From Actinomycetota bacterium (GTDB taxonomy: Bacteria > Actinomycetota > Actinomycetes > Streptosporangiales > Streptosporangiaceae), in contig DAHVDE010000037.1 of NCBI GenBank assembly GCA_027313705.1, positions 1 to 64,000 of the forward strand: 64,000 bases of DNA, given 5' to 3'. Below the pieces are notes generated by a model. That model was not told where the DNA came from, did no database searches, and worked only from the letters and a program-made list of their open reading frames with translations. Made by a program: the position numbers and the translations under genes. The stretch's first letter is position 1, and each line of letters opens with the position of its first letter. Below, piece after piece: positions 37,108 to 41,793 of the stretch.

Positions 37108-37542
37108 TCAGCCTCGCCCGGTGCCCCTGGGCAGCTTGCTGACGGTCACCGACTCGAGCAGCAGGTCATGGATCAGTCGCTCGATCACGGCAGCTCCGTC
37201 GATCGCACCGCAGCTGAACAGGTCGATGGCGATCAGGTTCTCCTCCGGCCAGGTGTGCAGGGAAAGATGCGACTCGGCCAGGATCAGCACCAGCGTGATG
37301 GCGCCGTTCGGAAACACGACGTGCGACTCGCCGAGCACGTGGCCGCCGCCTGCGTCCACTGCCGCCCTGGCCACGGCAGTGAGCGCGACGAGGTCGCCGA
37401 CGGGCGAAGCGGCGTCGTAACAGTGCCCGTCGACCGCGTAAAGGAGCTTCGGCGAGACCGCCTCAGCCTGCCGCAGTGCCGCGAACTGCGGTGCCGCGAA
37501 CTGCGGTGCCGAGGAACCGCTGGCAGGATCTGTACCGGACAT
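37108..37542 (-). CDS. speD: S-adenosylmethionine decarboxylase proenzyme
   Basis: 144 residues. Pyruvoyl enzyme that supplies decarboxylated AdoMet for aminopropyl transfer. Self-cleavage site Glu90-Ser91 in LAESHLSLHTWPEE; His96 and Cys111 stand at +5 and +20, as in the class-1B (SpeH) enzymes. The N terminus has a 30-residue extension with a 15-bp in-frame duplication (FAAPQ twice). Divergent from the aminopropyltransferase-type gene 30 bp away, so the two probably share a control region. Confidence 0.93.
   Translation of the reverse strand: MSGTDPASGSSAPQFAAPQFAALRQAEAVSPKLLYAVDGHCYDAASPVGDLVALTAVARAAVDAGGGHVLGESHVVFPNGAITLVLILAESHLSLHTWPEENLIAIDLFSCGAIDGAAVIERLIHDLLLESVTVSKLPRGTGRG
37479..37508. 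repeat. 15-bp in-frame duplication in speD
   Basis: CCGCGAACTGCGGTG occurs twice in tandem (37479-37493, 37494-37508) and duplicates five residues in the poorly conserved N-terminal extension. Confidence 0.93.
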
Positions 37543-37571
37543 GATGTGGGAGGATACCCCAGGCGACTGAC

Positions 37572-38705
37572 ATGGACATTGACGCGATTGTGATCGAGGT
37601 GGCCGGGGCCGTTGGCCTGGCCGAAGGCGAGTCGGGCGTGCGCGACGTCCTGCGCGTGATCGCGCGGGACGAGCCGGTGCCGACCAGCGGGATCAGCCGG
37701 GTGGCCGAACTGCCCGTCCCGATTGTCACCGCGGTCTGCAACGAGCTCCGCAAGCGCGGCGTGGTCGACAGGACCAGGCCAGTGCGCCTTACCGAGGCGG
37801 CTCGCCAGATTCTCGCCGGGCCGCATCTGCCCGCCGTCTGCCCGCAGTGCGGCGGACTCGGCCTGGTTGTGCCTGCCGAGCTCGAGGTGCTGGCCGGCGA
37901 GCTGGCGGCGGATGCGGCCGGAGCCCCGCAGGCCAGGCTCGAACTTGACCAGACCCATTGCACGGTCGCCACCAAGCTGCACCGGGTGCTCAAATTGCAT
38001 GACACCGGAGCGCTCGAAGGCAAGGACATCGTCCTGATCGGGGATGACGACCTGATCTCGGTGGCGATCGCCAGGTTCGCGGCGCTGACCGGCGTCAAGC
38101 CAGGCACGGTCACGGTGGTCGATACCGATGCCGCGGTGCTCGGCTGGATCGCGGTGCGAGCGCCTGGAGTCAGCCTGGCCGAGCACGATCTGCGCCAGCC
38201 GCTGCCCGCCAGCCTGGCCGGTGCCTTCGACGTCGCCTGCACCGACCCGCCTTACACCGTTCCAGGCGCTGAGCTGTTCTTGTCCCGCGCGGTCGGCGCG
38301 CTGCGGCCGCGGCCTGGCGGGCATGTCTTCTTCAGCTTCGGCGCCCGCCGTCCGGCGGAGACTCTCGCGACCCAGCAGCTCATCACCGACCTCGGCCTGG
38401 TGACCAGGTCGCTGACCCAGAACTTCAACTCCTACACCGGAGCGGGCATCCTGGCCGGCGCCAGTCACCTCTATCACCTGCGCAGTACCGGCCAGACCGC
38501 GGCGCTAATCGAAGGCAGCTATGAGGGGCCGCTCTACACGGCCGACAGCAGGCCAGGCCAGACCCGGCCTTACCGCTGCGCGTCCTGCGGTGCGGTTCAC
38601 CTGGTCGGTACCGTTACCTGGGCCACGATCGGCCAGCTCAAGGCGACTGGCTGCCCGGCCTGCGGCGGCACCGCGTTCCGGCCGATGCCCAGGGCATCGA
38701 GGTAG
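37572..38705 (+). CDS. bpsA: Branched-chain polyamine synthase (BpsA-like)
   Basis: 377 residues. N-terminal winged-helix-like segment (VRDVLRVIARDEPVPTSGISRVAELPVP), a short CPQCGG, then a Rossmann aminopropyltransferase core with GKDIVLIGDDDLISVAIARFAALTG near 150-170 and TDPPYTVPGAELFLSRAVGAL near 226, and a C-terminal zinc ribbon (YRCASCG...GCPACGG). This is the family of archaeal/thermophile N4-bis(aminopropyl)spermidine synthase. Placement beside AdoMet decarboxylase supports an aminopropyl-transfer role. Actinobacterial homologues are uncharacterised as far as I know. Confidence 0.85.
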   Translation: MDIDAIVIEVAGAVGLAEGESGVRDVLRVIARDEPVPTSGISRVAELPVPIVTAVCNELRKRGVVDRTRPVRLTEAARQILAGPHLPAVCPQCGGLGLVVPAELEVLAGELAADAAGAPQARLELDQTHCTVATKLHRVLKLHDTGALEGKDIVLIGDDDLISVAIARFAALTGVKPGTVTVVDTDAAVLGWIAVRAPGVSLAEHDLRQPLPASLAGAFDVACTDPPYTVPGAELFLSRAVGALRPRPGGHVFFSFGARRPAETLATQQLITDLGLVTRSLTQNFNSYTGAGILAGASHLYHLRSTGQTAALIEGSYEGPLYTADSRPGQTRPYRCASCGAVHLVGTVTWATIGQLKATGCPACGGTAFRPMPRASR

Positions 38706-38732
38706 CCGGGCGGTCATGGAAAGATACAGGGC

Positions 38733-39227
38733 GTGGCGGGGAACTACCTGATCAGGCCGGCGAGTGAGGCGGACCTCGACGCCATCGCGGCGTTCGAGGT
38801 GGAAATCGCGCTGGTCTCGTTCGGTGACGAGGCGATCATCGACCAGGCCTTCCACCGTAGGCGGGTGGCCGGCTCGCTGTCCAAATCAGGCGAGATCGCG
38901 CTGGTCGCGGTCAGCGAGGCCGAGCCAGGCAAGCCGCTGGGATGGGCCTGGATGTCGGCCAGGACCAACTCGCTTACCGGCGCCAGGTACGGCAACTTCC
39001 GCTCGCTCGCGGTCGCGAACATCGCGGACCGCGGCGTGATCGGCGAACTGCTGATGGAGGCCGTGCTCGCGGCGGCGGACGAGGCTGGCTTCACGCACCT
39101 GAGCGGCAAGGTGAACGCCGGTAACCTGGCCATGCGGTCGCTGTACCGCGCATTCGGATTCACGGCCACGCACCTCACCATGGAAAAGCGCCTGTATTTC
39201 AGCAAACCACCAGGTGAACTGCCGTGA
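38733..39227 (+). CDS. GNAT-family N-acetyltransferase
   Basis: 164 residues from a GTG 27 bp after bpsA. GNAT pattern: IRPASEADLDAIAAFEVE at the N terminus, KPLGWAWMS, FRSLAVANIADRGVIGELLMEAVLAAADEAG (acetyl-CoA region) and KVNAGNLAMRSLYRAFGFTAT. Substrate unknown; beside bpsA a polyamine or amino-acyl substrate is possible. Its stop overlaps the FkbH-like start (GTGA). Confidence 0.85.
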   Translation: MAGNYLIRPASEADLDAIAAFEVEIALVSFGDEAIIDQAFHRRRVAGSLSKSGEIALVAVSEAEPGKPLGWAWMSARTNSLTGARYGNFRSLAVANIADRGVIGELLMEAVLAAADEAGFTHLSGKVNAGNLAMRSLYRAFGFTATHLTMEKRLYFSKPPGELP

Positions 39228-40282
39228 TCAAGTGCGTGATCTGGGACCTGGATAACACTTTGCTCGCCGGCACCTACCTGGAGTCGCCTGATCAGCGCCT
39301 GTGCGCTGATCCCGACGCCGCACGTGCGCTGGCTGAACTAGCCGGCCGTGGCATCCTGCACGCGATCGCGAGCCGCAACCCGCCTGAGGCGGCCGCCTGT
39401 GCCGCCACACTCACCGGCCATGCATTCGCCGCCGCCCGCCTCGGCTGGGGCAAGAAGTCGGCGGCGGTGGCCGGGATACTCGGCGAACTCGGGTTGAGCG
39501 CCGGCGAGGCGGCATTCGTCGACGACGATCCGCTTGAGCGAGGCGAGGTCGGCCGTGCCCTGCCCGAGGTGCTGGTACTTGCGCCAGAGGACCTGGCAGA
39601 AGCGATCGGCTGGCCCGAGTTCAGCCCGCCAGTGATCACGCCGGAGGCTCGCCGCCGCGGCGACATGTACGCCAGCCGCCGGGTCAGGCAGGAAGAAGCG
39701 GCAGCCTTCGGTGGCTCTGCGGACGAGTTCCTGCGCTACTGCCGCACCGAGGTCCGGATCGCCGAAGCTACCGAGGCGGACCTGCCCAGGCTGCATGAGC
39801 TTTCCTTCCGCACCCACCAGTTCAACTCGGTCGGCGTGCCGGTTGGCGCGGAGATCTTCGCGCGGCTGGCGGGCGGGCCGCAGGGACCGAGCCGGGTGGT
39901 GACGGTCAGGCTCAGCGACAAGTTCGGCGACGACGGTCTCGTCGGCGGCTGCGTCATCACGGTCAGCGGCGGCACCTGGCACGTGCCGCTGCTCATGATG
40001 TCCTGCCGCGCGCTCGGCCGGGGAGTGATCGGGGCGCTGCTGGCGTGGATCCGCCGGGCAGCGAGCCTGGCAGATGCCAGCGAGGTCGTCGTCACCTGCG
40101 TGATCACCGACCGGAATGTCCCGCTGCGGATCGCGCTGACCGGTGCGGGCTTCCGCGCGGACATGGCGGCCAAGATCACCCTGCCCGACTGGGCGCAGTC
40201 GGGGGAACATGCCCGCGTGGCCGCTTACCATGCCGCCCCGGGGCAGCCCGAACTGCCCCACTGGGTAGTCGAGGTGCCGTGA
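39224..40282 (+). CDS. FkbH-like protein (HAD phosphatase domain + acyltransferase-like domain)
   Basis: 352 residues. HAD motif I CVIWDLDNTLLAG (Asp nucleophile near 8), motif II-like HAIASRNPP, Lys region GWGKKSAAV and AFVDDDPLERGEV, then a C-terminal GNAT-like half (VRIAEATEADLPRLHELSFRTHQFNSVG, ALGRGVIGALLAW). FkbH/OzmB/Bryotype proteins move a glyceryl group from 1,3-bisphosphoglycerate to an acyl carrier protein. An ACP gene follows by TGATG overlap, so glyceryl-ACP formation is the natural inference. Confidence 0.88.
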   Translation: MIKCVIWDLDNTLLAGTYLESPDQRLCADPDAARALAELAGRGILHAIASRNPPEAAACAATLTGHAFAAARLGWGKKSAAVAGILGELGLSAGEAAFVDDDPLERGEVGRALPEVLVLAPEDLAEAIGWPEFSPPVITPEARRRGDMYASRRVRQEEAAAFGGSADEFLRYCRTEVRIAEATEADLPRLHELSFRTHQFNSVGVPVGAEIFARLAGGPQGPSRVVTVRLSDKFGDDGLVGGCVITVSGGTWHVPLLMMSCRALGRGVIGALLAWIRRAASLADASEVVVTCVITDRNVPLRIALTGAGFRADMAAKITLPDWAQSGEHARVAAYHAAPGQPELPHWVVEVP

Positions 40283-40575
40283 TGGAAAGGTCAGCGACGG
40301 GCGGTGCCGGCCAGGGCGGTGCCGTGCTGGCTGACCTGAAGCTGATGCTGGCCGACATTACCTCCGACGACGCTGCGCTCACGGCGGCACCTGACACTCC
40401 GCTGCTGCGTGATGGCCTCGGTCTGGATTCCCTGGGCGGGGCATTGCTGCTGGTCAGGGTGCGGGCCGAGTTCGGGGTCGACGTCGCGGACGAGGACCTG
40501 AACCTGGATTGCCTGGCCTCCATCGGGACGCTGGCCGCCTTTGTGGCTGACCGGATGGCTGGCCGTTGTCGTTAG
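40282..40575 (+). CDS. Acyl carrier protein
   Basis: 97 residues. Phosphopantetheine site Ser50 in DGLGLDSLGGALLLVRV, followed by the usual helix III (VADEDLNLDCLASIGTLAAFVADR). The start overlaps the FkbH-like stop (TGATG), a pair well known from glycerate-derived extender pathways. Twenty-residue N-terminal Gly-rich extension. Likely the carrier loaded by the FkbH-like protein. Confidence 0.9.
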   Translation: MERSATGGAGQGGAVLADLKLMLADITSDDAALTAAPDTPLLRDGLGLDSLGGALLLVRVRAEFGVDVADEDLNLDCLASIGTLAAFVADRMAGRCR

Positions 40576-40608
40576 TCTTGAACGGGACAGCACGGAATGA
40601 GGTAGCCG

Positions 40609-41793
40609 ATGTCAGCCGTTTTCGCCGTCGATGCGTGCCGCACGCCGATCGGGAAGATCAAGGGTGCCCTGGCCGGTGTCCGCCCCGACCACCTGACTGC
40701 GGACGTCATCGCCGCTTTGATGGCCAGGAACCCGTGGCTTGATCCGCTCTGTGTCGACGACGTGTACTGGGGTGCGGCCAACCAGGCAGGCGAAGACAAC
40801 AGGAACGTCGCACGGATGGGCGTGCTGCTGGCTGGCCTGCCGGTCGACGTGCCAGGGGCGACGGTCAACCGGCTGTGCGGCTCGGGCATGGAGGCGATCT
40901 GCTCGGCCGCCAGGGCGATCGCGGCAGGCGACGCTGATGTCTGCATCGCAGGCGGTGCCGAGTCGATGACCAGGGCGCCCTTCGTGCTGCCGCGTGCCGC
41001 GGACCCCTTCCCGCGTGAGGCGGGCCTGGCTGACACCAGGCTGGGCTGGCGGCTGGTCAGCCCGCGCATGGCCGAGCTTTACCCGCCGGTCAGCCTGGGC
41101 GAGACGGCGGAGAACGTCGCGGCGAAGTACGGCATCGACCGGGCAAGGCAGGACGAGTTCGCGCTGCTCAGTCACCACCGGGCGGCCGGCGCAGCGCAGG
41201 CGGGCCGGTTCGGCGACGAGATCATCCCGGTCGCGGTCAAGGCCGGGCAGGTGACCGAGGACGAGGGCATCAGGCCCGACCTGACCGCGGCGGAACTCGC
41301 TTCGAAGAAGCCGGCCTTCCGTGCCGGCGGAACCGTGACCGGCGGCAATTCCTCGCCGCTCAACGACGGCGCGGCCGGGCTGCTGCTGATGTCCGAGCGG
41401 GCCATGCGCGCGGCCGGGGCTGAGCCTTTGGCCAGGTACGCGGGTAGTGCGTCGGCCGGGGTCCACCCGGACTACATGGGCATCGGCCCGGTTCCCGCGA
41501 TGGCCAAGGTTCTACGCCGCTCCGGCTGGCAGATCGGCGACCTTAGGCTGCTCGAGATAAACGAGGCGTTCGCTGCCCAGGTGGCAGCCGTGGTCGACCA
41601 GCTCAAGTGCGACCCTGACCTGGTAAACGTGAACGGCGGCGCGATCGCGATCGGGCACCCGCTTGGCTGCTCAGGCGCCAGGATCACCACGACCTTGTTG
41701 CATGAGCTACGCCGTCGCGGCGGCGGCATGGCGGCCGCCACCATGTGCATCGGCGTCGGCCAGGGTATCGCCAGCCTGTGGCAGGCGGACTAG
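40609..41793 (+). CDS. Thiolase (acetyl-CoA acetyltransferase type)
   Basis: 394 residues. Nucleophile Cys90 in VNRLCGSGMEAI, GGAESMTRAPFV, GNSSPLNDGAAGLLLMSE, INEAFAAQ, the His block GGAIAIGHPLGCSGAR and the final Cys in MCIGVGQG. All catalytic residues are present. The PcaF/FadA-type subfamily fits best (REA-x-x-D spacing and SMTRAP). It follows the ACP gene by 33 bp on the same strand and may extend the FkbH/ACP operon; an ordinary beta-oxidation role is equally possible. Confidence 0.92.
   Translation: MSAVFAVDACRTPIGKIKGALAGVRPDHLTADVIAALMARNPWLDPLCVDDVYWGAANQAGEDNRNVARMGVLLAGLPVDVPGATVNRLCGSGMEAICSAARAIAAGDADVCIAGGAESMTRAPFVLPRAADPFPREAGLADTRLGWRLVSPRMAELYPPVSLGETAENVAAKYGIDRARQDEFALLSHHRAAGAAQAGRFGDEIIPVAVKAGQVTEDEGIRPDLTAAELASKKPAFRAGGTVTGGNSSPLNDGAAGLLLMSERAMRAAGAEPLARYAGSASAGVHPDYMGIGPVPAMAKVLRRSGWQIGDLRLLEINEAFAAQVAAVVDQLKCDPDLVNVNGGAIAIGHPLGCSGARITTTLLHELRRRGGGMAAATMCIGVGQGIASLWQAD

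Follow-up and report, generated by a model that had tools for sequence, protein, structure and literature searches.

A conserved speD–bpsA–GNAT–fkbH–ACP cassette in actinobacteria that may build an acylated aminopropyl amine through a carrier protein

We analysed a stretch of 64,000 nucleotides, hereafter the window, from contig DAHVDE010000037.1 (assembly GCA_027313705.1; contig C108 in our labelling) of a 5.3-Mb Streptosporangiaceae genome (G000; 98.87% complete, 4.28% contaminated). In it, speD, the gene for a pyruvoyl S-adenosylmethionine (AdoMet) decarboxylase, lies divergent from bpsA, encoding a BpsA-type aminopropyltransferase, which is followed by genes for a GNAT N-acyltransferase, an FkbH-like protein and an acyl carrier protein (ACP). 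Sequence comparison supports well the view that these five genes are a real cassette and form one unit, because of their linkage within the family, the fusion of BpsA to GNAT in other genomes, the presence there of a nearby speD and a phosphopantetheinyl transferase (PPTase) gene, and the separate group formed by the cassette FkbH proteins. We propose, at a probability of about 0.48, that the cassette makes an N-acylated aminopropyl amine with the carrier protein as acyl donor; the amine acceptor, the acyl group, the ACP-to-GNAT transfer and the product are those that we infer below. No description of such a cassette was found in the open-licence PMC literature, and the data suggest that soil actinobacteria make modified polyamines by a hitherto unrecognised route.

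The initial annotation of the window had bet on bpsA, GNAT, fkbH and ACP as one small pathway and had named a neighbourhood confined to close strains as the finding that would speak against it. It had joined the polyamine half to the acyl-carrier half by their spacing only. The bet has held up: the linkage is conserved in three families, and BpsA and GNAT are fused in two of them.

Linkage within and beyond the Streptosporangiaceae

We searched one set of 200 family genomes for both BpsA and FkbH. BpsA matches were present in 152 of these and fell into two classes whose E values lie far apart (4e-59 vs 2e-31 on either side of the break). Class I, with 61–72% identity, occurs in 16 genomes from six genera, the window genome included, and class II comprises all remaining matches (33–42% identity among the matches listed). 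The two classes form separate groups in a tree (support 100/100), and class-II proteins carry GDHDL instead of GDDDL in all five that were read. At class-I loci, fkbH directly follows GNAT in each of the 14 genomes whose contig reaches far enough (the contigs of G035 and G137 stop within the GNAT gene, and the loci of G036 and G159 each span two contigs). ACP follows fkbH in 12 of 12 assessable genomes, the copy of G159 being on its second contig, with G019 and G105 left out because their contigs stop within fkbH. A divergent speD adjoins bpsA in 12 of 15 assessable genomes (the contig of G041 begins inside bpsA); it was not found upstream of bpsA in G093 (7 kb read), G019 (0.9 kb) and G137 (1.4 kb). 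As a control, 14 class-II bpsA loci of 3.6–3.8 kb each gave no match to speD, GNAT, fkbH or ACP, and none of the other cassette genes was present at five class-II loci read over 11 kb. Since the same order recurs in other genomes, the gene order in the window is taken to be more than chance. In one relative, G137 (L003/L008), bpsA and GNAT are held apart by about 0.8 kb that carries a frame on the opposite strand. The class-II BpsA_C proteins (L022–L035, L086–L090) occur widely across the family, with no polyamine genes beside them.

Outside the family, class-I BpsA (E up to 1e-35) is sparse: it was detected in 4 of 396 genomes sampled from the phylum, 6 of 297 from the order, 6 of 394 from the class and 8 of 246 from the Streptomyces-like genus g70, the first three counts each including the window genome and all sampled sets overlapping. 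The carriers outside the family are ten g70 genomes, G1015 (family f8) and G334 (family f10). In all 11 genomes of g70 and G1015, BpsA and GNAT form a single open frame (with Pfam run on four of the fusions), and fkbH and ACP follow this fusion in ten. speD is near the fusion in all 11, divergent before bpsA in g70 and after ACP in G1015, and a PPTase match is located at most about 1.2 kb from speD in ten of the 11 loci (again with Pfam on four). Over the three families, fkbH stands beside class-I bpsA in 24 of 26 assessable loci, with FkbH identities to the window copy of 32–63%. The BpsA tree, built with eight of the 11 fused rows, neither supports nor rejects a single origin of the fusion (62/11). 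Among plasmids, a BpsA search returned one place, in Nonomuraea gerenzanensis, at 37% identity across half the protein. In g70, chaplin and tyrosinase genes adjoin the cassette at L100:12800-14147 (by Pfam) and, by eye, at seven other loci; in L115 and L119, neither was seen up to 5 kb away.

Conserved residues and amine supply

Gene families were assigned by Pfam and NCBIfam profile matches against their cut-offs, and BpsA was also compared with solved structures. The window SpeD passes the Pfam cut-off and scores 69.3 bits with NCBIfam TIGR03330, below the cut-off of 75.65. Its residues S91, H96 and C111 align with the pyruvoyl Ser, the His and the catalytic Cys of the Thermotoga maritima AdoMet decarboxylase 1tlu (S63, H68, C83). 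S91, H96 and P99 are invariant across 15 aligned rows, and the Cys is kept in eight family rows, in G1015 and in a second SpeD of the window genome. This second SpeD, on contig C43 (L084:9484-12858; TIGR03330 96 bits), heads a different gene row, with alanine-dehydrogenase/PNT, weakly transaldolase-like and methyltransferase-like proteins. According to the accessible portion of PMC10407285, a conserved Pro separates AdoMet decarboxylases from SpeD-derived arginine decarboxylases, and P99, within HTWPE, presumably occupies the equivalent position.

Among solved structures, BpsA is matched by 5xnc, an N4-bis(aminopropyl)spermidine synthase (E 4.3e-24), and by 2qm3 (E 1e-25). The GDDD motif at 157–160, D225, Y288 and four Cys are invariant in 21 of 21 rows; Asp159 and Asp160 of this motif are essential, in the accessible text of PMC12979288. 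Of the four acceptor-side residues of the Thermococcus kodakarensis enzyme, in a hand-counted alignment to 5xnc, Asp225 corresponds to D225 and Tyr290 to Y288, while Glu259 is opposite an Arg (R260) and Tyr316 is past the alignment end. The same source describes, in Thermococcus kodakarensis BpsA, a flexible C-terminal acidic cluster (E339, D342–E345) that carries the aminopropyl group, with DEE in Thermus thermophilus. The cassette enzyme resembles Thermococcus and Thermus BpsA (EC 2.5.1.128) in its BpsA_C domain, GDDD motif, D225, NFN.Y tyrosine and a MarR-like stretch in the N-terminal part (below the Pfam cut-off), but has a CxxC...CxxC tail in place of the acidic carrier cluster, is linked or fused to GNAT and, in the window, belongs to a genome without a speE-model match. 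From its four Cys, the tail can be read as zinc-ribbon-like, its Zn_ribbon_8 match (23.2 bits) being below the Pfam cut-off of 34.4.

The GNAT was modelled at a predicted local distance difference test (pLDDT) score of 89.8. We take Q/RxxGxG/A to be the coenzyme A (CoA) pyrophosphate-binding loop motif of acetyl-CoA GNATs. With the register set by alignment to 2ge3, an Arg at the first place of this motif is present in 2 of 24 rows, a Gly at the fourth in none and a Gly or Ala at the sixth in 23, so the loop of the cassette GNAT appears degenerate. The protein shares with the polyamine N-acetyltransferases SpeG and DpA the GNAT fold and the linkage to polyamine genes; it differs from them in a CoA pyrophosphate loop that seems not to be kept, in its fusion with BpsA in relatives and in the acyl carrier protein encoded next door.

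No Pfam family matched FkbH above its cut-off, and the assignment comes from TIGR01686 (186.3 bits vs a cut-off of 146.65), which is also passed by the copies in L100 and L119 (183 and 194 bits). In the structural model (pLDDT 88.7, predicted template-modelling score 0.67), one half matches HAD phosphatases and the C-terminal one GNATs, SpeG among them. Residues D8, D10, T12, K78, D100, D101 and C261 are kept in all 21 cassette rows and C4 in 20. C261 is also kept in 23 other FkbHs, that is in 44 of 44 rows, and with Ala being usual at the ASRN place in other FkbHs (14/16 and 4/7), the idea that the cassette protein had lost its catalytic Cys there was dropped. H198 is present in 20 of the 21 cassette rows, where other FkbHs mostly have Ser or Asn. 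In a maximum-likelihood tree of the 21 cassette copies, 16 family paralogues and seven plasmid FkbHs, all 21 fall on one side of a branch (support 100/99 against the 23 others, and also 100/99 against 16 others), which, in this unrooted tree, fits a single recruitment. Four of the plasmid copies (L124–L127) come from operons annotated with acyl-CoA dehydrogenase, ACP and 3-hydroxyacyl-CoA dehydrogenase, as in methoxymalonyl-ACP pathways. The attachment Ser of the ACP is kept in 22 of 22 rows, within a motif that drifts from GLDS to GLTS, ALTS, SLSS or GLGS.

As far as the accessible text of PMC7489565 goes, methoxymalonyl-ACP operons combine FkbH and ACP with two dehydrogenases and an O-methyltransferase, and glycerate-utilisation operons combine them with FabH-like, acyltransferase and dehydratase genes. 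The cassette resembles these glyceryl-ACP units (methoxymalonyl-ACP and tetronate/glycerate-utilisation) in the FkbH–ACP adjacency, the HAD residues and the conserved Cys. It differs in a core without dehydrogenase, O-methyltransferase, FabH-like or polyketide synthase genes, in its own FkbH group and in the amine-building genes that stand there instead.

The amine that BpsA might use was approached through the gene content of the carriers. The window genome encodes two LysA-type decarboxylases, an agmatinase (186.7 bits vs a cut-off of 174.3) and the second SpeD on C43; it also encodes one distant spermidine-synthase-like protein of the fused major facilitator superfamily (MFS) kind (Pfam 28.8 vs 22.9 bits, NCBIfam MFS_SpdSyn 77.5 vs 40). 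The speE model gave no match in this genome at E 0.001. None of the 22 class-I BpsA genomes passes the curated speE cut-off. Five of them (G000, G055, G093, G024 and G334) have no match at E 0.001, and the other 17 have matches of 22–133 bits, those of g70 and G1015 being at 72–133 bits. The cut-off is strict: only 4 of 14 control genomes (10 ring) pass it, and the 72–133-bit matches therefore leave a working SpeE possible in g70 and G1015. In the window lineage, these results suggest that BpsA may be the main aminopropyltransferase, with an acceptor that is perhaps not spermidine. The cassette recalls the SpeD–SpeE spermidine module in pairing an AdoMet decarboxylase with an aminopropyltransferase, but the partner is BpsA, in genomes with no speE above the cut-off and weaker matches in 17. 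The branched polyamine that the initial annotation proposed as a possible product is in doubt, since BpsA lacks the acidic carrier tail of the characterised enzymes and the spermidine supply is doubtful.

Candidate pathway and its alternatives

In the pathway that we favour, SpeD would produce decarboxylated AdoMet, and BpsA would transfer the aminopropyl group from it to an amine. A PPTase, such as the one encoded near the cassette in other families, would arm the ACP. FkbH would then charge the ACP with a three-carbon (C3) acid; by analogy with known FkbH systems, this would most likely be glycerate drawn from 1,3-bisphosphoglycerate. GNAT would move the acyl group from ACP onto the BpsA product. 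Glyceryl is our default acyl group because known FkbH–ACP pairs make glyceryl-ACP, according to the accessible parts of PMC7489565 and PMC8949500. The strongest hint that GNAT uses ACP is that FkbH, ACP and, elsewhere, PPTase travel with the BpsA–GNAT fusion. A more specific version, which we hold only tentatively, is an ACP-dependent polyamine pathway in which BpsA, in the stead of SpeE, makes a small amine that GNAT acylates with a glyceryl or other C3 group from FkbH-loaded ACP; if true, polyamine metabolism would be fed directly from glycolytic 1,3-bisphosphoglycerate through carrier-protein chemistry.

Known polyamine modification uses acetyl-CoA, and FkbH is known to load carrier proteins in polyketide and nonribosomal pathways. 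If a conserved cassette joined the two, this would be a new metabolic route, and the fusion would allow it to be tested in cultured members of the Streptomyces-like genus. It would also extend BpsA beyond thermophiles (to our knowledge, the host family is not known as thermophilic) and give SpeD a partner other than SpeE, and class-I BpsA, with its different tail, offers material for work on mechanism.

Several observations weigh against carrier-dependent acylation as the function of the whole cassette. In G334, speD and bpsA stand alone, without GNAT, fkbH or ACP, which indicates that BpsA can work without the rest. G867 (L115:11453-16089) keeps speD and the fusion together with a 172-aa frame that starts like FkbH and seems to be a remnant; ACP and PPTase matches are absent from the locus, and the ketosynthase, AMP-binding and thioesterase genes after the fusion fit a carrier-bound product equally well. 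In G777 (L118:3395-7931), a nonribosomal peptide synthetase (NRPS)-type protein, a thioesterase and an MFS exporter are encoded directly before PPTase and speD, which fits such a product too. The FkbH of G1015 scores 145.8 bits, narrowly below its cut-off of 146.65, and neither Pfam nor NCBIfam gave a match at E 0.001 for the ACP of the same genome. Tyr takes the place of the catalytic Cys in SpeD, with Ser and His kept, in four aligned rows of the ten g70 genomes and in G334 (L100, L114, L115, L119 and L099). The BpsA carrier tail has been replaced: an acidic cluster is found in none of the 21 rows, all of which have the four Cys. The GNAT model has an ordinary GNAT fold (VIA Z 16.2–18.2 among the matches listed), and a degenerate loop falls short of proving that ACP is the donor. 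In motif I, cassette FkbHs depart from the others, L14 replacing Trp in 11 of 21 copies and G11 replacing Asn in 10. The FkbH tree has no root, and the 23 sequences set against the cassette copies are narrowly sampled (the 16 best family paralogues and seven plasmid copies).

The alternative that survives best, although we consider it unlikely, is that GNAT caps what BpsA makes as an ordinary polyamine acetyltransferase dependent on acetyl-CoA, and that the C3 unit from FkbH and ACP goes elsewhere or is delivered in another manner, for example via the GNAT-like domain of FkbH. The ordinary fold is what it would predict, with the polyamine acetyltransferase DpA among the tied top structural matches (Z 18.2), as is the C-terminal half of FkbH, which also matches GNATs including SpeG; an acetylated branched polyamine is moreover reported from T. 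kodakarensis in the accessible text of PMC12979288. It has to accommodate a CoA pyrophosphate loop that is degenerate in the 24 rows, and a cassette with no other separate transferase able to use ACP.

Less probable again is a tethered amine, in which BpsA aminopropylates an ACP-bound intermediate, or GNAT couples the amine to one, so that the cassette would yield a unit for assembling a carrier-bound metabolite and not a free acyl-polyamine. The assembly-line genes at G867 and G777 agree with this, as do the altered BpsA tail and an uncertain supply of free spermidine or putrescine in the window genome. Ketosynthase, AMP-binding, thioesterase and NRPS-type genes are, however, outside the conserved core in the remaining loci read, and the agmatinase and second SpeD of the window genome mean that free amines may be made.

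The group-specific changes in FkbH (L14, G11 and H198 in 11, 10 and 20 of 21 rows) could instead mean that it is no glyceryl transferase and loads a different acid, phosphorylated or activated, or acts solely as a phosphatase; with the nucleophile, the Lys, the Asp pair and C261 kept, and ACP directly after fkbH wherever a complete locus was read, this appears improbable. We also considered that the linked SpeD may be an ornithine or arginine decarboxylase, above all in g70 with its Cys-to-Tyr change, because two SpeDs without a clear SpeE match the search pattern of PMC10407285, whose accessible text takes SpeD without SpeE as a sign of altered SpeD function; against this, the linked SpeD has the AdoMet decarboxylase residues, and BpsA is a ready partner. 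That the polyamine pair and a separate acyl-carrier pair are mere neighbours without a common product, as the lone speD–bpsA of G334 might suggest, is highly improbable given the FkbH linkage in 24 of 26 loci from three families at 32–63% identity, the BpsA–GNAT fusion and the overlapping start and stop codons.

Gene layout and outer neighbours

The initial annotation placed speD, bpsA, GNAT, fkbH, ACP and a thiolase gene in the order and at the positions that we also obtain (Table 1), and needs correction only in the spacing between the divergent starts of speD and bpsA, read from the sequence as 29 bp and not 30. The gaps are 27 bp between bpsA and GNAT and 33 bp between ACP and the thiolase gene; the GNAT stop and the fkbH start share four bases (GTGA), and the fkbH stop and the ACP start share one (TGATG).

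Table 1. Genes of the cassette and the adjoining thiolase gene in the window.
Gene	Predicted product and remarks	Positions	Strand	Profile match
speD	Pyruvoyl AdoMet decarboxylase; divergent from bpsA	37108-37542	-	PF02675 (AdoMet_dc) 72.6 bits, above Pfam cut-off
bpsA	BpsA-type aminopropyltransferase; zinc-ribbon-like C-terminal tail (C336, C339, C361, C364)	37572-38705	+	PF01861 (BpsA_C) 113.3 bits, above Pfam cut-off
GNAT	N-acyltransferase; GTG start	38733-39227	+	PF00583 (Acetyltransf_1) 27.1 bits, above Pfam cut-off
fkbH	HAD-IIIC and GNAT-like C-terminal domain; presumed C3-acyl (glyceryl) loading enzyme; GTG start	39224-40282	+	TIGR01686 186.3 bits
ACP	Acyl carrier protein; ATG at 40282; GLDSL motif	40282-40575	+	PF00550 (PP-binding) 34.6 bits, above Pfam cut-off
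Thiolase	Adjoins ACP; judged probably outside the cassette	40609-41793	+	Thiolase N and C domains above Pfam cut-offs

The thiolase had been included in the pathway, and this we set aside as improbable. Among class-I family loci, it directly follows ACP only in G000, G093 and G036; in G055 and G041 it stands apart from ACP, with other genes between, and the stretches read at the g25 loci showed none. At the two g25 loci tested (L067 and L072), ACP is followed by a Na+/H+ antiporter gene, and at L073 by one for an aldo/keto reductase. What counts against leaving the thiolase out is a distant thiolase match (38%) about 2 kb past the cassette of G1015; with its varying position, or other genes after ACP, in relatives, it is probably not part of the cassette.

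Among the outer neighbours, of which only some were named, neither a dehydrogenase pair with an O-methyltransferase nor FabH-like, acyltransferase or dehydratase genes belong to the conserved core. The upstream purple-acid-phosphatase-like gene of the window was set aside as a member, having no match beside the cassettes of relatives. In G1015, an acyl-CoA dehydrogenase is encoded two genes before bpsA. The downstream cardiolipin synthase gene is near the cassette in several relatives, at varying distance.

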